Source of the DNA: Candidatus Aquicultor sp.
Lineage (GTDB): Bacteria > Actinomycetota > Aquicultoria > Aquicultorales > Aquicultoraceae
Length of the DNA stretch: 43,022 nucleotides
Direction of reading: 5' to 3'
Assembly: GCA_036504445.1 (NCBI GenBank)
Contig: DASXVE010000013.1
Coordinates: 1-43,022 of the forward strand
How positions within the stretch are numbered: position 1 is the stretch's first letter; each line of letters begins with the position of its first letter. Below are positions 1,224 to 18,706 of this stretch, one piece after another. The notes under the pieces are model-generated. The model worked only from the letters and a program-made list of their open reading frames with translations, was not told where the DNA came from and made no database searches. A program made the position numbers and the translations under genes.

Positions 1224-1371
1224 CATTTCTCCTCACGGCTGGTTTCTAAGATTCTGTCTTGTTTTCTACATCGGCAACTTAACCAGCAGCTTAAGATATT
1301 AAACTGTATGTATTAAGCACGAACGATCTTTTTCCGATATAACCAATAATCACCTAATTAGGAGTTACTTG

Positions 1372-3105
1372 TTGAAAAAGCGGCTGACCATCGATGTTAA
1401 AGCAAACGTAATTATTGTCATTATCGCCCTGATACTCTTGGCAACGGCTGTTGTCTTCTTGTTTGCAACAAATAAGCTTATCGGCACGGTGAGTAATATT
1501 GCACAAGATTCATCCAGTCTAGAGCGCATCAGCCACTTGCAGCTGATGGCCCGAAGCATGACGCTGCCGGCCCAAGATTTCCTGCTGAATCACAACAGCG
1601 ATAATATTCGCATGTTTAATAACCTGGCCACCGATTTTGATACTAAGTTGAAAGATACCCGCGGTAAAACACTTAACGGCAATCACCAGGCGCGGGCCGA
1701 TGCTGATAAAATCAATGCAAGCCTTGCACAAATCCGCCACACGGCAAATCAGCTATTCCACACCACCGGTAGCTCAAGAGACGCTATGGTACTTAAAGAT
1801 ACGCTCGATAAACAAATTAACAAGCTCGTTAATGAGGTGAACGAGCTGCATGCGCTGAGCCTCAACAACATATCAACGAAATCCTATGACAGTAAACAAA
1901 TCGGGCAGCAGATCAGGATTATACAGATTTTTGTTGTTTGTATTGCCCTTATTACCTTGCTATTCGTACCAATCTACATGCACCGGTTTGTGGCCAGCCC
2001 GATGCGGCGTTCGTTTAACCTTATAGTCGATCTTGCATCGAGTTTGGCAACATCATCAAACGGACTCAACGAAAACGCTACTTCGATTAATGAAACCGCA
2101 AAGGAAGTTGTACAAGTTCTCGGCGAAGTTGCCGAAGCGGCGGGTGAGCAAAGCAATAGCGCAGAAGAGCTCTCGGATATTGCGACAAGTATTAGTTCTG
2201 CGATTGATGCGGCGGCTGAAGGCTCAGGAACGCAAGCAACGCGCATAGGTGAAACGGTCGAGCAATTACGCAAGCTTACCGAAGCCATTGACACTGTTAC
2301 GCAGAATGCTGAACTTGTCTCTAACGTCGCCAACGACGCAACTAAAACCGCGACTCATGGTAAAGGTGCGGTAATAGATATCATCACCGAAATGGAGCGC
2401 ATCAAAGATACCACACTCTCCTCTGCAGAAAAAATTCAGGCACTCGGTGAGAAATCAAAACAAATCGGTGAGATCATCGAAGTAATCGATGACATCGCCG
2501 GGCAAACCAATCTTCTTGCGCTTAACGCTGCAATTGAGGCAGCCAGAGCCGGCGAGCACGGTAAAGGCTTTGCCGTCGTAGCCGATGAGGTGGGAAAACT
2601 TGCCGAACGCTCTACTCGGGCCACAGGCGAGATTGCAGAGCTTATCAAAGGTATCCAAGATGAAACGATTGAGGCAGTTGCATCCATGGAACATGGAACT
2701 GCTGAGGTTGAGGCAGGCGTAGAGCTTGCCGGAAAAGCCGGAACGTCGATTGAGCAAGTTATGACCTCTATAAATGATGTAGTAAAGCGAATCAGCCAGG
2801 TTGCGGAAGCCGCACAGCAAATGGTCGAGCTTAACAAAGAGGTCGGCGGCGAGATCGACCAGATTGCGGGTCTTGCCGATAATACTAAGGCAGCAACCGT
2901 TCAGATAAAAAGCGATATATCAAACGTGACCGACGGTATCGCAATGATTGCAACAATAACCCAAGAAGCCGCTTCTTCAACTGAGGATGTATCGGCCAAT
3001 ATGGAGCAGCAAAATGTAGCGATAGAAGCGATAGCAGATTCCGCGGCCGAGCTTTCCTCAATGTCATCAAGGCTTGAAGAGCTTATGGCCGAGCTGAACA
3101 TTTAA
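1372..3105 (+). CDS. Methyl-accepting chemotaxis protein (complete)
   Basis: A transmembrane chemoreceptor of 577 residues. TM1 is near residues 12-33, an extracytoplasmic helical ligand domain spans about 34-182, and TM2 is near 183-204. A long cytoplasmic coiled coil follows, with the conserved hairpin tip near 369-413 ([20 protein letters not shown] then [17 protein letters not shown]). This tip binds CheA/CheW in the family. Two TTG codons are possible starts (1369 and 1372). The second sits 7 nt after GGAG (1361-1364) against 4 nt for the first, so 1372 is chosen. No HAMP domain is obvious after TM2. No CheB/CheR-docking pentapeptide is seen at the C-terminus, which ends in ELMAELNI. No che genes are in the window. 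The ligand is unknown. Confidence 0.92.
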
Positions 3106-3222
3106 GCACTGGACAGAACACCTGGCTACGCTCTCCGCCAAAAGCACCAAAACACCCTGGTCTTTTTCAACACCTCCTTCAAATTTACAGAAGACATGCC
3201 CTGTTTGAACGCGCTATGATTT

Positions 3223-4476
3223 GTGCATATACTGACCTTAGTGAATGTAGCTGTGACATCGTGCGTCATGCCGCACGAGTCTCAAATAATCGGACTGCTT
3301 ATGACAAGGCGAAGGCTCCCCGAAGACGTGGCAATTCCAATACGCATTACACTCGTTTACATAGTCATCAGCGCTGTCTGGATTTTTTTCTCAGACCTCC
3401 TGGTTGTTGCGCTCACCAGCAACCCGGCAACGATAGCCCGCCTGTCAACATATAAAGGATTCTTCTTTATCTCCGTATCGGGGCTGCTCCTGTTTTCACT
3501 AATACGAAATAACATTCGCGCGCTGGAAGAGTCGACGGCACGACTTAAAGAAAGCGAGGAGAAATTCCGCGAACTCGTTGAGCATACAAGCGATTGGGTG
3601 TGGGAGCTCGATGAGAACATGCTTTTTACCTATAGCAACCAGAAAGTTGAAGATGTTCTGGGATATACGCCGAACGAGGTCATAGGCAAGCATCCGACCG
3701 ATTTCATGGCACCTGATGAGGCGCAACGGGTGTCAACCATAATAGAGGATCTTGTTGTTGAGAAAGCGCCTTTTAACCTTATAGAGAATACTTTAATCCA
3801 TAAAAACGGGCTGCCGGTTATTGTGGAAGTCAGCGGGCTGCCTATCGTTGACAGCGAAGGCCGGCTTCGGGGATGCCACGGCATTAATCGCGATATTACC
3901 GAGCGCAAGCAAGCCGAAGAAGTACTCAGGGAGCGCGATCTTTATGTGCGCCGTGCGTATGCTGACGCACTGGGCGCTGTAACCGGTGGGCGCCTCATCA
4001 TCATGACGATTGATGAGATACGTGCAGTGCTTGGCGAGCCTATTACAAATTCCCAGACTATCGATTCATATAAAGACCTGGCGTACGTCCGCGCACAACT
4101 CATAGCAACACTTGAATCGCAATTTTCGGATAAGGAGCGCGCGAACGAACTATTGCTCGCTGCAAGCGAGGCAATCACCAATGCCGTTAAACATGCAGGC
4201 AAAGGCACATACCAAGTTCTTAAGCGCAACCGAACTATACAGCTCATGGTTGAGGATGCCGGGCCTGGGATCGATTTTACGCTCCTACCGAAGGCCACAT
4301 TGCTTTCAGGCTTTTCAACAAAGCAATCTCTTGGGATTGGATTTAGCGTCATGCTGGAGCTAAGCGACCGCGTACTTCTCTCCACCCAGCCGGGCGGCAC
4401 CATAGTCGTCCTCGAGAAGAGGCTGACAGCACCGGAGGAAGGTGAAGATATCGATCAATACAAAGCAGTCGACTAA
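3223..4476 (+). CDS. Membrane PAS-domain protein with HATPase_c (RsbT/histidine-kinase-like ATPase)
   Basis: Up to 417 residues. Two N-terminal TM helices lie near 40-65 and 78-98. A coiled linker and one PAS domain (about 110-230, starting EEKFRELVEHTSDWVWELDE and ending in the ITERKQAEEVL linker) follow. The C-terminus is a GHKL ATPase (about 300-400) with N-box SEAITNAVKHA, G1 box VEDAGPGID and G2-like GIGFSVM. No canonical H-box histidine is visible before the ATPase, so a serine kinase or RsbW/RsbT-like partner-switching role is as likely as a classical histidine kinase. The start is uncertain: GTG 3223 gives the longest frame, and ATG 3301 gives a protein beginning MTRRRLPED that keeps both TM helices. 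Neither has a clear ribosome-binding site. Its stop lies 4 bp from the convergent CapA gene. Confidence 0.85.
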   Translation: MHILTLVNVAVTSCVMPHESQIIGLLMTRRRLPEDVAIPIRITLVYIVISAVWIFFSDLLVVALTSNPATIARLSTYKGFFFISVSGLLLFSLIRNNIRALEESTARLKESEEKFRELVEHTSDWVWELDENMLFTYSNQKVEDVLGYTPNEVIGKHPTDFMAPDEAQRVSTIIEDLVVEKAPFNLIENTLIHKNGLPVIVEVSGLPIVDSEGRLRGCHGINRDITERKQAEEVLRERDLYVRRAYADALGAVTGGRLIIMTIDEIRAVLGEPITNSQTIDSYKDLAYVRAQLIATLESQFSDKERANELLLAASEAITNAVKHAGKGTYQVLKRNRTIQLMVEDAGPGIDFTLLPKATLLSGFSTKQSLGIGFSVMLELSDRVLLSTQPGGTIVVLEKRLTAPEEGEDIDQYKAVD

Positions 4477-5762: not shown

Positions 5763-6332
5763 CTAATCAATATAGGTTGTTCCTACACGCGGATGCGGCT
5801 TTGCAGAAGGCTCTTCGTTGGGATATCCTAAGCTGATGCCACAAATGATTTCTCGATCCTCAATGCCGAATTCTTTCTGAATCTGCTCGCCGATATATGG
5901 AGGAACAGTGATCCCGCACGCCCCAAGACCTTCAGTGCCGGCCAGCAGCATGATCAGCATGACCTCGCTCATCGCTGCGATATTGGCAAATGAGTATTCC
6001 CACCTGCTCTCGTTCGGTATTTTTGGGATCGTAACAAAAACTAAGTTGGGGGCATCGCCGAGGTTCTCATAGTACTCAAGCGCCTTTTTTTCGCTGTCAG
6101 GATCCATCATGGCGAAGAGGTCACGCAAAATGACCGTATTCTGCGTGAGTAAATCGGCTACACGGTCGCGGGCATCACCGCTGGCGATAACAAACTCCCA
6201 TGAACGAAATGCAGCCACAACAGGTGCCCATCGAGAATTCTCAAAAATTCGCTCGAGCGCCTCTCGCGGCACAGGCATTTTTTTGAATTTCCTAATAGCC
6301 CGTCTGCTCCGGACTGCTTGTGCGAGTTCCAT
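5763..6332 (-). CDS. Nitroreductase family FMN oxidoreductase
   Basis: 189 residues with the nitroreductase fold signature. The N-terminal RSRRAIRKF is the FMN-phosphate-binding arginine motif. NSRWAPVVAAFRSWEFVIA, the central AAMSEVMLIMLLAGTEGLGACG, and the C-terminal ISLGYPNEEPSAKPHPR are also typical. Such enzymes transfer electrons from NAD(P)H to nitro compounds, quinones or flavins, and the true substrate cannot be read from the sequence. AAGGAG lies 6 nt before the ATG. It follows the small winged-helix gene by 10 bp, so it is the last gene of the minus-strand HD-GYP/GGDEF/winged-helix operon. That context suggests a redox function tied to the haem-containing sensor upstream, which is inference. 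Confidence 0.88.
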   Translation of the reverse strand: MELAQAVRSRRAIRKFKKMPVPREALERIFENSRWAPVVAAFRSWEFVIASGDARDRVADLLTQNTVILRDLFAMMDPDSEKKALEYYENLGDAPNLVFVTIPKIPNESRWEYSFANIAAMSEVMLIMLLAGTEGLGACGITVPPYIGEQIQKEFGIEDREIICGISLGYPNEEPSAKPHPRVGTTYID

Positions 6333-6342
6333 TTCTAACTCC

Positions 6343-6699
6343 TTAACTAGCGTTTTGACTCTTTCCGTCTTTTTCGATTAAGTAATTGAGGATCAGCCAG
6401 CGCATACTGCGATCATTTAACATCTTGGTAAACTTCTCAATATGCGGTTGCCACGTTTTGCATGGGGAGAATCGGTAGCAAATTGTGGCACCATCATCTT
6501 GGTATTGCACAATTTTACATGCCGATAGCTCTGACAAGGCCTGTTTTACCTCGCTTACGCTGCGGCCGACCGATGAAGCGATATCTTCAGGGGATACGAG
6601 ATCATTTGGGTTGAGCTGCAGGTATGCAATCATATCCCACTTCACGAGGGTGTCTATTACGTTATCGAGTAGCTCTTGTATGTCCTTGGAGATTGGCAT
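6343..6699 (-). CDS. Small winged-helix DNA-binding protein (hypothetical regulator)
   Basis: 118 residues. The segment VKWDMIAYLQLNPNDLVSPE then DIASSVGRSVSEVKQALSEL looks like a winged helix-turn-helix (about residues 18-72), with KIVQYQDDGATICYRFSP as the wing. The C-terminal 45 residues are helical. GAGGAG lies 6 nt upstream of the ATG. The ATG overlaps the stop of the upstream GGDEF gene by one base (TAATG), indicating translational coupling. The nitroreductase starts 10 bp downstream. It may regulate this operon or respond to the redox state sensed by its neighbours. No exact family is recognised, and no ligand-binding cysteines or histidine clusters are evident. Confidence 0.7.
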   Translation of the reverse strand: MPISKDIQELLDNVIDTLVKWDMIAYLQLNPNDLVSPEDIASSVGRSVSEVKQALSELSACKIVQYQDDGATICYRFSPCKTWQPHIEKFTKMLNDRSMRWLILNYLIEKDGKSQNAS

Positions 6700-8225
6700 T
6701 AGGCTCTCCTCTCGCGCGTTTGTTTCTTGTTCTGCGCTACCAGTCGTTTCTTGGCGATCGTAACACCGTCTTTGCCACTGCTTTTAACCTCGTACATAGC
6801 TGAATCCGCGTGCTCGATGATCTCTACTATGCTCGTACCCTGGCTCGGATAACTTGCCGCGCCAATACTTACGGTTAGGCCAGGTTCTACAGGGCCATTA
6901 TTGTCCGGATATGACTCCCGGCGAACGTTTTCTATAATCTTTCCCGCAACAACTGCCGCTTCCTCAAGCCCCGTGTTAGGCAAAATCACCACAAATTCTT
7001 CACCGCCATAGCGGGCGGCGACATCTGTCTCCCGACATGAGATCCTAATAGCGTGAGCGATCTTTGCAAGAGCTTTATCACCATTCAGGTGCCCGTAAAG
7101 GTCGTTATGCGCCTTGAAATCATCAACGTCAATAATAAGAAGCGACATGTCGTGTTGCTCGCGCTGTGCTCGCTTTATCTCTTCATTTATGCGCTCATAG
7201 AAATAACGCTGGTTGTAGAGTCCGGTAAGATGGTCCGTAAGAGACGATTCTCTAACCTTTTCTAAGAGGAGAGCATTATCGATAGCCAGTATAAACTGGC
7301 TGAAGGTCGTCTGAAAGATATCTTGTTCGTCGAAGAGTTCTTTGGTTTCGCTGTCTTTTACTAAAAGCACGAAGAGCCCCTGTGAGCCTTGTTGTACCGC
7401 GCCAACCGAAAGCTTGAGGGGCCGCAGTAAAGTCCCGGCTGTAAGCGATTCTTTCTTGATCTTTAAGAGATGCTCGAAAAGCATGGTTGTTGTAACGCCG
7501 ACGTTCGATATAACAAGCGGCTGGCGAATACCCTGATCGAGCATCACGAGAATATGCTCTGTTATGCCGAAAATCCTGCCGACCGTTTCCTGGAAGTATG
7601 AGCTTAGTTTTCTTAGGTCGTTAATAGACCCAAGCACCCTGCTCGCACTTATTAATACGGTAACTTTGTTATCAAGTTCATCGTTTAACCGCTGAATCTG
7701 TTTTCTATTGCTCGAAACAAGGTTAATGGTAGAGCCGATAAGTATGGCACCGAGCCATACCAGACCTACCCTTAAAACAACCGGGCCATAAAGATACGGC
7801 TGCCCGGCAACTTGCTCGATATAACAATAATCGTATGCGGACGTAAACAGTGCCATAGCAACACCGCCTGCTAGGCCAAGCCGTAACGACGAAAAAGCGA
7901 CAACTGTAAGATATGAATAGATCAAGTAGCTTTCGAGTGGGCCAAGTAGCGAGAAGGCTTTTATCACACAAAGGGCATCTGCAACCGCTATAAGCAAACA
8001 TGCCCATTTATTAACCAGTTTATAGTTTGCTATGATAAACATTAGGCCTGTTACCATACATGCTGCAAGCCACGATAATAGGACAAAAGTGCTGCTGGAG
8101 CTGCTGGATAAGCCGGCGATTAAAACGATTAGCACAATGGCGACCCTCAACCCGATAAAGAGCGATTCGGTCGCAAAACGCCTATCTGTGGTTTTCTGCA
8201 TTAGTTCGGTAAGCGTTTGTTTCAT
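6699..8225 (-). CDS. Membrane-bound diguanylate cyclase (GGDEF)
   Basis: 508 residues. About six N-terminal TM segments lie within residues 20-180. A GAF-like region (about 190-335) contains ASRVLGSINDLRKLSSYFQE, and a complete GGDEF domain occupies about 340-500. The active site RYGGEEF (GGEEF near residues 407-411) is intact, and RETD lies five residues before it, the canonical RxxD inhibitory site for product feedback. It should make cyclic di-GMP from two GTP. Its start is 11 bp after the stop of the HD-GYP gene, and its stop overlaps the winged-helix start. Synthesis and breakdown of c-di-GMP are thus encoded in one transcript. The multi-TM domain may be a MASE-type sensor, but I cannot assign its class. 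Confidence 0.93.
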   Translation of the reverse strand: MKQTLTELMQKTTDRRFATESLFIGLRVAIVLIVLIAGLSSSSSSTFVLLSWLAACMVTGLMFIIANYKLVNKWACLLIAVADALCVIKAFSLLGPLESYLIYSYLTVVAFSSLRLGLAGGVAMALFTSAYDYCYIEQVAGQPYLYGPVVLRVGLVWLGAILIGSTINLVSSNRKQIQRLNDELDNKVTVLISASRVLGSINDLRKLSSYFQETVGRIFGITEHILVMLDQGIRQPLVISNVGVTTTMLFEHLLKIKKESLTAGTLLRPLKLSVGAVQQGSQGLFVLLVKDSETKELFDEQDIFQTTFSQFILAIDNALLLEKVRESSLTDHLTGLYNQRYFYERINEEIKRAQREQHDMSLLIIDVDDFKAHNDLYGHLNGDKALAKIAHAIRISCRETDVAARYGGEEFVVILPNTGLEEAAVVAGKIIENVRRESYPDNNGPVEPGLTVSIGAASYPSQGTSIVEIIEHADSAMYEVKSSGKDGVTIAKKRLVAQNKKQTRERRA

Positions 8226-8236
8226 TGCCCGTCCTA

Positions 8237-10045
8237 CTAAGCCGATCTTACATCGGCATCCTCTTTACTGTCGTGGTGATTCATCGCTCGCAAAAGAGCC
8301 TCCACAAGCAGGGGGTCGAATTGTTCTCCTGAACATGCTTTCATCTCGGAAAGCGCTGTTTCGAAACTGCAACCTGCCCTGTAGGGCCGGTCGCTGGTCA
8401 TCGCGTCGAACGCATCGGCAACAGCAAGAATGCGTGAACCGATCGGTATGTCTTCACCCGCTAAGCCATCGCTATACCCTGTCCCGTTAAAATGCTCGTG
8501 ATGGTGACGGATAATCGACGCAGCGCGCGCTAGGTTTGGGATTCTTCCGACAATCTGGGCGGAAAGTGCCGGGTGAATCTTTATATGGTCATATTCACTA
8601 TCAGTCAGAGGACCGGTTTTATTGAGAATCTCTTCCCGGACACCGATTTTGCCGATATCGTGCAGGAGCGCCGCGACATGCAATTCATCCAGCTCATCGA
8701 CTGAAAGACCTAGCTCCTGCCCGATAAGCAAGGTGTACTTAGCAACATTCTCTGAATGTCCTCGCGTGTACGGGTCCTTCGCTTCTATCGCCTCGACCAG
8801 CGCTTTAACGGTATTAAGATGCAGTTCGCGCAACTTGTTATTGACATGTGTGAGCTCATCTTGCGTCGAACGAATTTTGCCAACCATCAAGTTAAATGCA
8901 TGTGCTAAATCTGCGACCTCATCTCTGGCGGTCATGTCTACTATATATGTGTAGTCACCGTTGGAGATCGCATCGATAGCTTTTGAAAAGACGGCGACGC
9001 GCTTACGCACCCACGTAGTGACGAGAGCCGCTCCTGCCAGTGAGAACAATATTACGCACAATGCGAGTGCAAACATGAATGCTTTCAGACGAGTCCTGAC
9101 TTGCTTGTCCTGTTGCATCGATCGTGCGGCATCCGCACGTGCAAGGTCCAATATCTTTGCCATGGATCGTTCCGGTTTAGTAAACGATGTTTTAAACCTA
9201 TGTAGCGCCTGGGCATCGAACCGGGATTCCCTTTTTGCTACTACAAGTTTATTCATTGTATTTTTAATCTTCTTAGTGATTTCTGGAAGTTGTGCGATTT
9301 CATGATGACATGAATAGCAGTTGCCTTTAAGCGGGGGCTCAACCGGTTTTGATTTAGCCAGTTCGCTTAATCGATTATATGAAGCCTGCGCTTTTCCGGC
9401 TGAATCATTCTTAATAGCCAGATCTAGTTCGTGCACCGTTATAATCAATGATGTCGCACGTTGCTTGAGCTCTAGATCTCTCGCCAGCCGCCTAGGTACA
9501 TGCGCCTTAGCGCCCGGTTGCTGCGCTGATGATGCTTTAATCTCAGCGCGCGCCCTGCGTAACTCATCCTTGGTAAGCGTATCGATCTTGGCGGAGATAC
9601 GCTTGAGGTTCTGCATATTTTGGTTGACAGCGCGTTGATAGCGGTGAGCGGATGAATCGTCGGAGAGTCGAGCTTTATCAAGCTGCGCCAGGTTCTTCTG
9701 CAGCAAACCAAGCTCCGGCTTAAGTGAAATGAATGCTTTATGGCATGTCTTGCAGTCGCCGCTATGTATCGCTGAAGCCTGGTTGTCAATGAGAAGTTTT
9801 AGCTCATCGAAGGTTCCCCAGAACGTTTTCTCGTTACTACCGCGTGCAAGAAGTACCGCATACCCTCCTGTTTCGACCTCAGTTATTTGACTGTCGATAC
9901 GCTCGATATTTTTTAGTACGCCAAGAGCCCTTGCTTGTTGCCCTTCAACCGTATCCGCATCGCTAAACATCCGAATGCCGATAAGGCTTGTTAGGACAAC
10001 GAATACGATGATGAGACCGACAAAAACCGCCAATTTTTTGTACAT
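8237..10045 (-). CDS. HD-GYP c-di-GMP phosphodiesterase with extracytoplasmic di-haem sensor domain
   Basis: 602 residues from the ATG at 10045, which follows AAGGTG by about 10 nt. A longer frame to 10108 has no ribosome-binding site. TM1 is near 3-24. The extracytoplasmic region (about 25-322) carries two CxxCH c-type haem attachment motifs: CKTCH at about 98-102 and CYSCH at about 243-247. TM2 is near 325-350, followed by HAMP (about 350-400) and a full HD-GYP domain with HDIGKIG (Asp near 463), RHHHEHFNGTGY and SDRPYR. HD-GYP enzymes hydrolyse c-di-GMP. The two motif-containing segments look like a duplicated half, each with a long helix before the Cys pair. It is the first gene of the operon leading to GGDEF, winged-helix and nitroreductase genes. 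A redox- or gas-sensing input through haem is inferred. Confidence 0.92.
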   Translation of the reverse strand: MYKKLAVFVGLIIVFVVLTSLIGIRMFSDADTVEGQQARALGVLKNIERIDSQITEVETGGYAVLLARGSNEKTFWGTFDELKLLIDNQASAIHSGDCKTCHKAFISLKPELGLLQKNLAQLDKARLSDDSSAHRYQRAVNQNMQNLKRISAKIDTLTKDELRRARAEIKASSAQQPGAKAHVPRRLARDLELKQRATSLIITVHELDLAIKNDSAGKAQASYNRLSELAKSKPVEPPLKGNCYSCHHEIAQLPEITKKIKNTMNKLVVAKRESRFDAQALHRFKTSFTKPERSMAKILDLARADAARSMQQDKQVRTRLKAFMFALALCVILFSLAGAALVTTWVRKRVAVFSKAIDAISNGDYTYIVDMTARDEVADLAHAFNLMVGKIRSTQDELTHVNNKLRELHLNTVKALVEAIEAKDPYTRGHSENVAKYTLLIGQELGLSVDELDELHVAALLHDIGKIGVREEILNKTGPLTDSEYDHIKIHPALSAQIVGRIPNLARAASIIRHHHEHFNGTGYSDGLAGEDIPIGSRILAVADAFDAMTSDRPYRAGCSFETALSEMKACSGEQFDPLLVEALLRAMNHHDSKEDADVRSA

Positions 10046-10187
10046 ATTTCCGGGGCACCTTTCGCTAAGGGTTTCTTGCTTTAAATATCGGTTCCCGGAA
10101 ATAAACATTTAGCGTTGATATAGAGGCAGCAACTATTATGGGGTACGCTTGGGGTTATTAATGAAGAGGAAATGGGGGCGGATTCAG

Positions 10188-10754
10188 TTAAAGGCCTTGT
10201 TCTATTCTTTCTACCGCTAAGTCCAAGGACTGTTGCCCGCTGGTCAGCTTCGTAAGACATGCTTGCGACAGCTTAGCGTTCTGATCAACCAAAGCCGTAA
10301 TGAGGTTGTCCATTGCCCAGCTATAATCACGAATCGCTTTCTTTAAACTCATATCGGCGACTTCATGTTCGTGCGGCGGCATGAGCTGTTTGGTTTGGTT
10401 TAGAACCGTCTTCATCGAGGTGACCTGGACTTGGACCTGCTGTCTTAGGGCTGGATTGGTGATCGCTGCATCGTCATTCAATAGATAGAGCAGGTTCTCG
10501 TTTATAGTCGCGATCTTATCGTAGCTATCTAAGAACGCGCGTTCATATACAAGCGGGGATAGCGGTTGCGGATCGGGCTTAGCGTTGCGCATAAGGATGG
10601 AAACGAGCAAAAGGTTCGCCGAGATTATAAAAATGCTGCCGATGAGGAGCGTTTTGATAAGCCAGTGCTGCCGCACCGGCTCGGTCGTCTGGGCTTCTTC
10701 ATATTTATCGTCTATCTCTAACTCCGACAGGTTTTGTTGATCGATCTCGTCCAT
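10188..10754 (-). CDS. Single-pass membrane protein with extracytoplasmic helical domain (hypothetical)
   Basis: 188 residues from ATG 10754, which has AAAGGG 6 nt upstream; the ATG at 10760 abuts that motif and is unlikely. The N-terminus is acidic (MDEIDQQNLSELEIDDKYEE), a TM helix lies near 34-56, and about 130 residues of predicted amphipathic helices follow. These contain YDKIATINENLLYLLNDDA and the repeated helical segments expected of a four-helix-bundle ligand-binding domain as in chemoreceptors. There is no cytoplasmic output domain and no CxxCH motif. It lies between the haem HD-GYP gene (same strand) and the divergent haem GGDEF/EAL gene, so it may be an accessory of that c-di-GMP module. 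The family is not recognised. Confidence 0.6.
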   Translation of the reverse strand: MDEIDQQNLSELEIDDKYEEAQTTEPVRQHWLIKTLLIGSIFIISANLLLVSILMRNAKPDPQPLSPLVYERAFLDSYDKIATINENLLYLLNDDAAITNPALRQQVQVQVTSMKTVLNQTKQLMPPHEHEVADMSLKKAIRDYSWAMDNLITALVDQNAKLSQACLTKLTSGQQSLDLAVERIEQGL

Positions 10755-10937
10755 ACGCATCCCTTTTGCAAATAAACCTACAACCCTACCTTACACAATT
10801 TAGCGGCGCGTGGCTAGCAGGAAGGCAGTGCGACCTAGCCCTTCTCTCCCCCGTACAACATAACCGGCAACGTTAAATTGCATTTAGTGCAGCAGTATAT
10901 ATGCCGATATTTTTATACATATGAAGGGAGAAGCCGT

Positions 10938-13907
10938 ATGAGTTTGCACTTCGTAAAGCGCTTTTTCACACTTGCTATCGCAATAATCGCTGTAGTGCTA
11001 ACGCTAATATTCGTGGGCTTTTATATGCGTACCGAGAGCCTCACCGAAAGCGTGATGTTAAAACAAGCGCGCGCATTATTTAACGAGATGGTGCTTACCC
11101 AAAGATGGGTTGCAAAGAGTGACGGCGTATACGTCAGGGTTGCGCCCGGCATGCATCCCTCGGCAAACGAAGCTAAGATGCTTGGCCCGGAATTCCAGAT
11201 AAAAGATACAATCGGTCGAACCTATATTTTAAAAAATCCGAGCATTGCAACGGTCGAAATATCGCAAATGGCCAACAATTCGGATTTATTTGCGCTTCAT
11301 CCTACAAGCCTGCGGCCTTTAAACCCAAAGACCGGCTCTCCTGATGCTTTTGAACGAGCCGCGCTCAAAAGCTTTGAGCAGGGCAAGCAAGAGTTCTTCT
11401 CGATCATTCACAGGAAGGACGGCGCATTTTACCGGTATATGGCGCCGCTACGCTATGAACAGAGCTGCAATAAATGCCATGCACGTCAGGGCTATAAGCT
11501 CGGCGATATACGCGGCGGAATCAGCATCACCATCCCGATGTCGGCAGTTCACGGCGAGATGCGAGCAAATCGGCTATACATGATACTAGCCGGCATAACG
11601 GTGCTGGTTTTACTGTGCGGAGCTCTCTATTTCCTATCAGCGAAGTTCTTGAAAGCGCTGCGAGACACACAAGGCAAACTTGTAAAGATGGCCGCCACAG
11701 ACGAGCTCACCGGCTTGCCAAACCGGCGTGCCGGTATCGCGCGCATGGAAGAAGAGATTTCTCGATACCGGCGCTCGGCTGAGCCGCTTTCCTGTCTGCT
11801 TCTTGATATCGACCACTTTAAACGAATCAACGATAACTACGGCCACCAGGCCGGCGATCTCGCCCTTACGGAAATTGCTCGTATCCTAAGAGGATGCCTT
11901 CGCCATTACGACTGCGTATGTCGTTACGGCGGCGAGGAATTCCTTTTAATACTGCCGGGAGCCAACATACAAGCCGCCCTCAGTGTTGCGGAGAAGATCC
12001 GGCAATCCCTTGCCGACACCGCCATTAATTACAATGACGCTACAGTTAAGGTGACGGCAAGTATTGGTTTGGCTGAGACGACCGGTGGAATCCTTGCCGA
12101 CATCGATACGATTATCAACAATGCAGACACGGCCTTGTATAAAGCTAAAGCACGCGGGCGCAACCGCATTGAAGTGTTTATGATGCAGAGCAACACCGCA
12201 CCGGTCGAGAAGACTCCGGTTGTGCCGGTCATAGAAGAAGCACATGAATACCTTGAAGCAGGCAGTGATGTAGTAGATATCCTTGAGAGTATTACCGATG
12301 CATTCTTTGCTCTTGACTCTGAATGGCGCTTTACATACGTCAATAAAATAGGTGAGCGTATGCTTCAGAAATATAAGGACGAGTTGCTCGGAAAGGAATT
12401 ATGGGACGAGTTCCCGGTGGCCGTCGAGCTTAAATTCTACCGGGAGTTTCATCGCGCGCTCGAGGAAAATGTGCAGGTTAAGATGGAGGAATTTTACGAG
12501 CCGTTCGATCGCTGGTATGAGGTGAACGCCTATCCTTACCGCGACGGCCTCTTTGTGTACTTCAGCGACATTACCGAACAGAAGCGCGCAGAGCAGCAAC
12601 TTAACTTTATGGCGTTTTACGACTCGCTTACCGGTTTGCCAAACCGCACGCTCTTAGATGATCGTCTGAGTCTGGCATGCGCGCATGCCCACCGCAACAG
12701 TGATAAATTCGCCGTGCTGCATATCGATCTCGATAACTTCAAGACAATCAACGACACGTTGGGGCACATCGCGAGCGACGAGCTATTGCGTGCCGCAACA
12801 AAACGTCTCCTAACGCACTTAAGAGAGGGAGATACTGTGGCACGTGTTAGCGGTGATGAATTTGTCGTACTGCTCCCACAGGTAAACCACGAAGAAGACG
12901 TGGCAATAATTGCCCAGAAGTTGCTCGAAACGATACGTCGTCCCATCTCGGTAAGCAACCAGGATGTCTATGTAACAGCGAGTATCGGCATCAGCCTGTA
13001 TCCGCACGACGGCATTGACGGGCAGGCGCTGTTGCGTCACGCCGATGCTGCTCTTGGGCTCTCAAAAGATCAGGGTAAGAACAACTACCAATTCTACTCG
13101 CCCGACCTCAATGATAAGGTTCTGAAACGCTTTGCAATGGAAAACCTCATCCACAGAGCGCTTGATAATGATGAATTCATGCTTTACTATCAGCCGCTAG
13201 TCGATTCTGAAACCAACACGATCGTTGGCATGGAAGCGCTCCTGCGCTGGGAAAACCCCGAGCTCGGCACCGTATCGCCACTCGACTTCATCCCGATTGC
13301 CGAGGAAACGGGGCTCATTATATCAATCGGCGAGTGGGTGCTTCAAGAGGCGTGCCGCCAAACGAAAGTATGGCACGATGCGGGTTATCCGCCGATAAAG
13401 GTCTCGGTTAACCTTTCACCCCGCCAGATCCAACAGCAGAACCTGGTTGAAACGGTCAAAGGGATTCTCGCCGAGACCGGTCTTGAGCCCCAATATCTTG
13501 AGCTTGAGCTCACTGAGGGCACAGTAATGAAAGACGCCGAGAAAGCTATTGCTGTACTCGCTCAGTTTAAGGAAATGGGCATACGCATAGCGATCGATGA
13601 TTTCGGCACCGGCTATTCGTCGTTGAGCTACCTCAAACAGTTCCCTGTAGATAAGCTCAAGATAGATAGGTCGTTTATTAGCAGCGTTGATAAAGACCCG
13701 AGCGATGCGGCAATCATCTCTACAATTATTGCGATGGCACATAACCTTAACCTAGGTGCGGTAGCCGAAGGAATTGAAACCCAAGCGCAACTCGAATGCT
13801 TGCGTTCGCTCAATTGCGGTGAAATGCAGGGCTTTTTGTTCAGCGAGCCCCTCACCGCCGAGAAGTTTGCCGAACTCCTTAAAAAAGCCAAGCGCATGTG
13901 CGCCTAA
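10938..13907 (+). CDS. Haem-domain/GGDEF/PAS/GGDEF/EAL dual c-di-GMP protein
   Basis: 989 residues from ATG 10938, with GGGAG 7 nt upstream; a frame from 10878 lacks a binding site. TM1 is near 8-28. The extracytoplasmic domain ends in SCNKCHARQGY (CxxCH at about 177-181), matching the Tll0287-like (DUF3365) haem domain architecture. TM2 is near 214-237. GGDEF-1 has GGEEF at 331-335 and an RxxD site (RHYD). A PAS domain spans about 435-545. GGDEF-2 has SGDEF at 638-642. The EAL domain has EAL at 766-768, plus NLSPRQ, ELTEG, DDFGTGYSSL, KIDRSF and EGIE, all expected of an active phosphodiesterase. The first cyclase site looks active; the second has Ser for the first Gly, common in GGDEF-EAL tandems. 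It can probably both make and break c-di-GMP under haem control. Confidence 0.93.
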   Translation: MSLHFVKRFFTLAIAIIAVVLTLIFVGFYMRTESLTESVMLKQARALFNEMVLTQRWVAKSDGVYVRVAPGMHPSANEAKMLGPEFQIKDTIGRTYILKNPSIATVEISQMANNSDLFALHPTSLRPLNPKTGSPDAFERAALKSFEQGKQEFFSIIHRKDGAFYRYMAPLRYEQSCNKCHARQGYKLGDIRGGISITIPMSAVHGEMRANRLYMILAGITVLVLLCGALYFLSAKFLKALRDTQGKLVKMAATDELTGLPNRRAGIARMEEEISRYRRSAEPLSCLLLDIDHFKRINDNYGHQAGDLALTEIARILRGCLRHYDCVCRYGGEEFLLILPGANIQAALSVAEKIRQSLADTAINYNDATVKVTASIGLAETTGGILADIDTIINNADTALYKAKARGRNRIEVFMMQSNTAPVEKTPVVPVIEEAHEYLEAGSDVVDILESITDAFFALDSEWRFTYVNKIGERMLQKYKDELLGKELWDEFPVAVELKFYREFHRALEENVQVKMEEFYEPFDRWYEVNAYPYRDGLFVYFSDITEQKRAEQQLNFMAFYDSLTGLPNRTLLDDRLSLACAHAHRNSDKFAVLHIDLDNFKTINDTLGHIASDELLRAATKRLLTHLREGDTVARVSGDEFVVLLPQVNHEEDVAIIAQKLLETIRRPISVSNQDVYVTASIGISLYPHDGIDGQALLRHADAALGLSKDQGKNNYQFYSPDLNDKVLKRFAMENLIHRALDNDEFMLYYQPLVDSETNTIVGMEALLRWENPELGTVSPLDFIPIAEETGLIISIGEWVLQEACRQTKVWHDAGYPPIKVSVNLSPRQIQQQNLVETVKGILAETGLEPQYLELELTEGTVMKDAEKAIAVLAQFKEMGIRIAIDDFGTGYSSLSYLKQFPVDKLKIDRSFISSVDKDPSDAAIISTIIAMAHNLNLGAVAEGIETQAQLECLRSLNCGEMQGFLFSEPLTAEKFAELLKKAKRMCA

Positions 13908-17941: not shown

Positions 17942-18286
17942 CTAGCTTACCAGATTGAGGTCATCCGAAGGCTGATCGGTGGCAACAAAAATCTCTACCC
18001 TGTTTTTCCCGTTGTGTTTTGCTGTATAAAGCGCATTGTCTGCACTCTTGATCAGCATGTCTTTTGAAGTTGCACCGCTTGGGTACGTTGCAACACCAAT
18101 TGAGATAGTAAGTTTGCCTGATGGTTGGTTCTCTTCGCTCTCAAACTTCGCAAGCTCGGCCCCGAGACCTATTCTGACCGCTTCATTGGCAAGCAGTACC
18201 TCATAATCTTTGTTAACCAACATGACGTGAAAGGGGACCGAATCTAGTATGCCGTGGATCTCCGATCCGATAGGTAGCGGCAACAT
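17942..18286 (-). pseudogene. PAS-GGDEF gene remnant with internal deletion
   Basis: This 114-codon frame begins with a PAS-like segment (HGILDSVPFHVMLVNKDYEV then LLANEAVR). It passes without a break into the last third of a GGDEF domain (GKLTISIGVATYPS, SADNALYTAKHNGKNRVEIF). The cyclase core with the GGEEF site and the rest of the PAS domain are missing. A large internal deletion has joined the two ends in frame, so the product cannot be a cyclase. It meets the HD-GYP remnant on the other strand head to head, overlapping it at 18274-18286. It could still be translated as a small protein, but it has no clear ribosome-binding site. Confidence 0.75.
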
Positions 18287-18706
18287 TACACGATATCGGT
18301 AAAATATATGTACCGGCTGAGATTTTAAGCAAGCCGAGTAAGCTTACCGAGATGGAGTTTAATATTATCAAGACCCACTCATCGCACGGTTGATATTTTG
18401 CGCACTATTGAATTCCCCTGGCCGATCGCACAGATCGTGCTGCGGCATCATGAGCGAATCAATGGTTCGGGATATCCGCACGGCTTACAAGAGAACGAAA
18501 TTCTTGTAGAAGCAAAAATACTAGCGGTTGCCAATGTTGTCGAGGCAATGGCCTCTCACCGACCGTACCGTCCAAGTTTAGGGCTTAATTGTGCGCTCGA
18601 TGAAATCGCGCAAAACAGGGGCATTCTCTATAATCCCGAGCTGGTTGATGCATGTTTAATGCTTTTTAAGAAAAGCGAAATCTGTTTTGACCAGGTAGCG
18701 GTATAA
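18274..18706 (+). pseudogene. HD-GYP phosphodiesterase remnant, truncated and frameshifted
   Basis: From 18274 one frame reads VAATLHDIGKIYVPAEILSK, the HD motif of an HD-GYP domain, and continues to IIKTHSSHG, where TGA interrupts. Two bases appear to be missing there relative to the usual G-YDIL. The next frame carries on with DILRTIEFPWPIAQIVLRHH then ERINGSGYPHGL, ASHRPYRP and a normal C-terminus to TAA at 18704-18706. The N-terminal part of the gene is absent, with a stop immediately upstream (18271-18273). The second part has an ATG at 18398 but no plausible binding site. Loss of the start and a frameshift make this a pseudogene. It appears to derive from the same kind of PAS/GGDEF/HD-GYP system as its neighbour. 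Confidence 0.85.

Follow-up and report, generated by a model that had tools for sequence, protein, structure and literature searches.

A predicted two-CxxCH sensor on an HD-GYP-like protein encoded with a diguanylate cyclase in Candidatus Aquicultor

Introduction

Does Candidatus Aquicultor sp. (Candidatus Aquicultoraceae, Actinomycetota) set its level of cyclic diguanosine monophosphate (c-di-GMP) through haem held outside the membrane? The question is raised by a 43,022-nt stretch of contig DASXVE010000013.1, hereafter the window, in which two membrane proteins with c-di-GMP enzyme domains carry CxxCH motifs. An initial annotation had named six genes at this locus, and all six were recovered where it had placed them, using the open reading frame set and Pfam. 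At the centre is an HD-GYP-like phosphodiesterase whose extracytoplasmic sensor contains two CxxCH motifs. As predicted from sequence, this helical sensor of HD-GYP, encoded together with a cyclase in a conserved operon, appears to be a new variant, of which no description was found in the literature searched. We consider it rather probable that the operon, comprising the phosphodiesterase, the cyclase, a winged-helix protein and a nitroreductase, sets c-di-GMP under extracytoplasmic haem c sensing of redox state or nitric oxide (NO), the divergent neighbour being a separate haem c enzyme.

Results

The sensor of the HD-GYP-like protein

The phosphodiesterase gene (8237..10045, minus strand; Pfam HD_5 2.9e-42, HAMP 3e-9) encodes a computed transmembrane (TM) helix, an extracytoplasmic region of ~290 residues, a second TM helix, a HAMP domain and an HD_5 domain. 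The motifs CKTCH (9740..9754, minus strand) and CYSCH (9305..9319, minus strand) had been reported to lie between the two TM helices, which was confirmed by topology and motif computation. The gene is present as annotated except for its start: the reading frame does extend to 10108, but the start is probably the ATG at 10045, because the N-terminus that it gives, MYKKL, is also found in three relatives. The metal-site motifs HD, HHE and DAFDA are intact by motif reading and align to those of PmGH and V-cGAP3, which are also the closest solved relatives by sequence; V-cGAP3, a phosphodiesterase for 3'3'-cyclic GMP-AMP (cGAMP), is the best PDB match. The domains, active-site motifs and solved relatives make catalytic activity likely for this protein and the other c-di-GMP enzymes of the locus.

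The sensor itself matched no Pfam or NCBIfam family, and a sequence search of the PDB returned no match to it. In the Pfam scan, the Tll0287/sCache_heme profile (PF11845) did not match the sensor and the 4HB_MCP profile (PF12729) did not match the HD-GYP protein, the latter giving a sub-cut-off match only in a relative, G004. Of the c-type cytochrome and multihaem profiles, Paired_CXXCH_1 and Cytochrome_C7 matched below the cut-off only, around the motif itself.

The sensor is best interpreted as a tandem of two helical units that each bear haem, an organisation with which the evidence is consistent and which it does not prove. This reading is based on the motifs kept in a relative, the likeness between the two halves, the position of each CxxCH and a one-CxxCH sensor in another relative. 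Both motifs are retained in G008 (as CRACH and CYGCH), where identity over the compared stretches is only 29% in one half and 35% in the other. Comparison of the two halves of the sensor gave a score of 48, against 30.5 ± 5.4 for shuffles, with 3 of 500 shuffles reaching 48; hhalign gave an E-value of 4e-4 for this single comparison, with a probability of only 33%. In the predicted secondary structure, which is of low confidence, each CxxCH stands at the start of a helix. Furthermore, a HAMP-GGDEF protein of G004 (L110, 6924-8252, contig C17) has a 4HB_MCP-like extracytoplasmic domain with one CxxCH, CTSCH. This sensor matches PF12729 at E 4.8e-6, just under the cut-off, and aligns with both halves of the HD-GYP sensor, the likeness being weak and centred on the motif. 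The G004 protein is a candidate haem c four-helix cyclase.

Haem c supply in the genome

Cytochrome c maturation genes, proposed earlier as a check on the haem reading, were found: CcmA-, CcmB-, CcmC-, CcmE- and CcmF-like genes form one cluster in this genome, and CcmE and CcmF were confirmed by Pfam. The cluster (L010, 6069-12647; G000:C25) lies beside hem genes. CcmH is absent from the genome, and variant Ccm systems are known to lack it. In the CcmE of this genome, Cys replaces His, so that HxxxY becomes CxxxY (QCPSKY), which we take to be the arrangement of Desulfovibrio-type CcmE. In addition, the CxxCH-coding pattern has 437 matches in the genome, compared with 176 for the reversed control. 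The CcmABCEF set and this large excess make covalent haem c attachment plausible in these sensors, where CxxCH motifs outside the membrane are accompanied by a maturation system in the genome. This excess, and the retention of both HD-GYP sensor motifs in G008, speak for more than a chance occurrence of the motifs. The earlier proposal of haem-c-type sensors on c-di-GMP enzymes, the haem being predicted, was supported.

The operon and its conservation

The phosphodiesterase gene is followed on the minus strand by genes for a GGDEF diguanylate cyclase (6699..8225; Pfam GGDEF 4.5e-48; 41-59% identical in relatives), a winged-helix protein (6343..6699; weak matches to several winged helix-turn-helix families; 64% identical in G005) and a nitroreductase-fold flavoprotein (5763..6332; Pfam Nitroreductase 7.8e-26; 73% identical in G005, at the same position). 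As the intergenic gaps are only 11, -1 and 10 bases, the four genes, from 10045 down to 5763, very probably form one operon. The TAATG overlap at 6699 noted in the initial annotation is real, the winged-helix ATG overlapping the cyclase stop codon. An RNA fold of the HD-GYP leader was not significant, and a promoter scan gave a signal at background level.

The cyclase has about five TM helices and a GGDEF domain with a GGEEF active site and an RxxD inhibitory site (I-site); its middle part is presumably GAF-like. An Asp after GHxxG/GHxxS separates c-di-GMP cyclases from Hypr (cGAMP) enzymes. A Hypr identity was considered for the cyclases of this locus; the Asp is retained in all three GGDEF domains (this cyclase and the two of the divergent protein described below), which fits c-di-GMP. 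The winged-helix protein may regulate transcription. A paralogue of it has a conserved place in the cell-division region of the family, flanked by a YggU-like gene and ileS (L042, 6571-6924; L043, 5409-5762). The nitroreductase, which the annotation had included in the module, is present and keeps its place in the gene order; its functional involvement is argued from that order alone, and it may be a redox output.

Conservation was compared across 11 Aquicultoraceae genomes. The order HD-GYP, GGDEF, winged helix, nitroreductase, which had been suggested as a test of the module, is kept in pieces in three of the others, those of Candidatus Aquicultor secundus (G005), Candidatus Aquicultor sp. 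(G008) and Actinomycetota bacterium (G003). In G008, the first three genes follow in order until the contig ends. One G005 contig ends 33 codons into HD-GYP, and another, presumably adjacent, begins inside GGDEF and continues with the winged helix, the nitroreductase and PilZ; this c-di-GMP effector gene beside the unit supports a c-di-GMP role. The overlap or near-overlap of the GGDEF and winged-helix genes is kept as TAATG, TAGTG (G005) and ATGA. As judged from these comparisons, the conserved unit in Aquicultoraceae is HD-GYP, GGDEF, winged helix and nitroreductase. Searching genome contigs with the cyclase alignment revealed no carriers beyond the three relatives, a scan of genome contigs with the whole HD-GYP protein found nothing, and the sensor profile detected no carriers outside the family among 396 genomes of the phylum.

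The divergent Tll0287 protein and the small membrane protein

Beyond a small membrane protein, and on the strand opposite to the operon, lies a gene for a protein with the layout TM, Tll0287/sCache_heme, TM, GGDEF, PAS, GGDEF, EAL (10938..13907, plus strand). The gene had been given a TTG start at 10878. Its presence was verified, and the start was moved: it is probably the ATG at 10938, since the ribosome-binding site GAAGGGAG lies upstream of it. The protein contains a Tll0287-like domain (PF11845, E 4e-19, 69.9 bits against a cut-off of 24.1) with the motif CNKCH (11466..11480, plus strand; motif reading), and the annotated position of this motif between the two TM helices proved correct. 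Pfam also gave GGDEF (6.8e-97), EAL (5.7e-77) and PAS_4 (2.7e-13); the first GGDEF motif reads GGEEF and the second SGDEF, and the EAL motifs are as usual.

This Tll0287 domain is the only copy in the genome, and five of the 11 family genomes have the domain. Several Aquicultoraceae genomes encode Tll0287 proteins (L067, L068, L069 and L071; CMKCH) of ~290 residues, which stop once TM2 and HAMP are complete and lack an output domain. In the Tll0287 family, at least 99% of members carry CXXCH and haem c has been shown in several; the member tested, taken from a signalling protein, binds NO but gives no stable complex with oxygen, and the domain has been reported as rare or absent in Actinomycetota (PMC12889525). 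The sCache_heme proteins of that study share with the divergent protein the domain (PF11845), the CxxCH, the flanking TM helices and a GGDEF/EAL output, and c-di-GMP enzymes are already among the fusions listed; here, in contrast, the host belongs to Actinomycetota and the output is GGDEF-PAS-GGDEF-EAL (PMC12889525). By its predicted domains, the divergent protein adds a member to a type whose description dates from 2026, and does so in a phylum in which that type had been considered rare.

The small membrane protein (10188..10760, minus strand) has one TM helix and, in its model, an extracytoplasmic four-helix bundle, with no CxxCH. The mean predicted local distance difference test score (pLDDT) of the model is 75, with values >90 over most of residues 70-189, and Foldseek showed only a weak resemblance to the ligand-binding domains of chemoreceptors (best E 0.018). 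Relatives of this protein in G003, G006 and G008 adjoin a gene that is dCache-GGDEF by Pfam in G006 and alike in the others. Its association with c-di-GMP enzymes thus appears to recur, though the partner differs.

The initial annotation had joined the divergent gene and the small protein to the operon in one module. This part of the proposal was not supported, as neither has a counterpart next to the unit in the relatives. The genes upstream of HD-GYP differ among G008, G003 and G005 (cation efflux, a small nucleotidyltransferase-like pair, other), and the Tll0287 domains of relatives are on other proteins at other places. Since the two genes are not neighbours of the unit elsewhere, joining them to it is speculative.

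Other signalling genes in the window

Remnants of c-di-GMP genes were observed: a short PAS-like start followed by the C-terminal end of a GGDEF domain (17942-18286, minus strand) and a C-terminal HD-GYP fragment (HD_5 positions 90-170; 18398-18706, plus strand), which suggests past gene loss in this part of the window. At 1369-4476 (plus strand), a methyl-accepting chemotaxis protein (MCP) without a recognised ligand domain is followed by a TM-PAS-HATPase protein, adding further signalling genes near the module.

Discussion

We propose that the sensor, formed by two haem-c-bearing helical units, would be linked through TM2 and HAMP to the HD-GYP catalytic domain. The redox state or axial ligand of the haem would change with the potential of the respiratory chain or electron acceptor, or with a gas such as NO. 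The helices would then shift into TM2 and HAMP and switch the phosphodiesterase against the co-transcribed cyclase, with the winged-helix protein and the nitroreductase carrying the response. Both the signal and the direction of control are what we infer. In Geobacter c-haem chemoreceptors, a redox-linked change of axial ligand has been proposed to signal across the membrane (PMC8396549), and a ligation switch in the HD-GYP sensor is suggested by analogy. The divergent sCache_heme enzyme would have a separate origin and probably reads a related signal. Moreover, because flagellar genes are common among members of Ca. Aquicultoria (PMC10746217), a motile-to-sessile switch is plausible as the end point.

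Several observations weigh against this proposal. The AlphaFold model of the sensor, although predicted all-helical, is of low confidence (pLDDT 50) and was not used for a fold search; the case for the two-unit organisation is therefore made from the sequence pattern and the secondary structure. The protein has GYS instead of GYP at 8471-8479, where G008 has GYP; as the metal-site residues are kept and GYP is absent, it was filed as HD_5/HD-GYP-like, and a canonical HD-GYP is not claimed. The unit is patchy, the cyclase being present in four of the 11 family genomes and absent from the other seven. The full sensor occurs only in this genome and in G008, where the HD-GYP frame is broken mid-sensor, a break that could reflect decay or an error in assembly. 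In G003 (L063, 8038-8289), an in-frame internal deletion joins residue ~10 to the end of the HD domain, so that the sensor and most of HD are lost while the cyclase is intact; the cyclase can thus outlast the haem sensor. Finally, no c-di-GMP riboswitch was found in the window, where the RNA-family scan gave two tRNAs only.

Other explanations of the same motifs were weighed. The sensor might bind haem c for electron transfer, taking electrons from multihaem cytochromes and so reporting respiratory flux, not a free ligand or the ambient redox potential. The richness of the genome in CxxCH clusters, the suitability of two haems in one sensor for a relay and the redox roles ascribed to stand-alone Tll0287 proteins (PMC12889525) favour this idea, which we nevertheless regard as unlikely: the module has no cytochrome gene as a neighbour, CxxCH is found in no other predicted gene of the window's open reading frame set, and the two further matches to the pattern in the window do not lie in the frames of those genes. 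If the cysteines instead formed a disulfide or metal switch, like that of the CSS domain in E. coli PdeC, they would not serve as haem ligands, and extracytoplasmic cysteine pairs do control other c-di-GMP enzymes (PMC8846402). However, every copy compared, the G004 sensor among them, retains the His of CxxCH, and the genome has cytochrome c maturation genes; the Tll0287 family, with 99% CxxCH and haem c shown in several members, points the same way (PMC12889525), and such a switch is very improbable.

A different question is whether the two haem proteins are simply unrelated neighbours that met by chance in a signalling-rich region, which would be compatible with the explanation offered for the HD-GYP operon. 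The variable genes upstream of HD-GYP in the three relatives, the placement of the family's Tll0287 domains on other proteins and the dCache-GGDEF neighbours of the small-protein relatives are in line with chance, as are the MCP, the PAS kinase-like gene and the broken c-di-GMP genes found in the same region. On the other side, 3 of the 19 GGDEF matches of the 2.57 Mb genome, its only Tll0287 domain and the haem HD-GYP all fall within 8 kb. We give the chance meeting an even prospect.

Cofactor binding by globin and hemerythrin domains involves no CxxCH link. Control of HD-GYP by a metal cofactor that responds to gas or redox state, as proposed here, is known from the globin-coupled HD-GYP of Vibrio fluvialis (PMC10882959) and the hemerythrin Bhr-HD-GYP of Ferrovum (PMC8846402); in the present sensor, by contrast, the cofactor is predicted to be haem c, outside the membrane and in a different domain. 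The c-haem chemoreceptors GSU0582/GSU0935 and DcrA likewise signal across the membrane from an extracytoplasmic sensor with covalent haem, but they have PAS/Cache folds with one haem on MCPs, whereas the HD-GYP sensor is predicted all-helical with two CxxCH (PMC8396549). Sensors of the 4HB_MCP/Tar type have the same order of TM, helical unit, TM and HAMP, to which the HD-GYP sensor adds CxxCH and an apparent duplication of the unit. No paper combining c-type haem, HD-GYP and CXXCH was found in the literature search, and in a 2022 census of the stimuli that act on c-di-GMP, neither 'c-type' nor 'cytochrome' appears in the main text.

Recognition of extracytoplasmic haem c sensors is only beginning, as the 2026 preprint on sCache_heme illustrates. 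More tentatively, and with the balance somewhat against it, the locus may reveal a new sensor class, an extracytoplasmic four-helix unit with covalent haem, duplicated in the HD-GYP protein and single in the GGDEF protein of a relative, which would couple respiratory redox state or NO to c-di-GMP breakdown and synthesis in deep-branching actinobacteria. The HD-GYP sensor would offer a small, expressible domain for testing the coupling of lifestyle to electron flow. If true, this second, unrelated-looking haem c sensor, on a phosphodiesterase beside its cyclase, would show how cytochrome-rich bacteria tie their lifestyle to electron flow.

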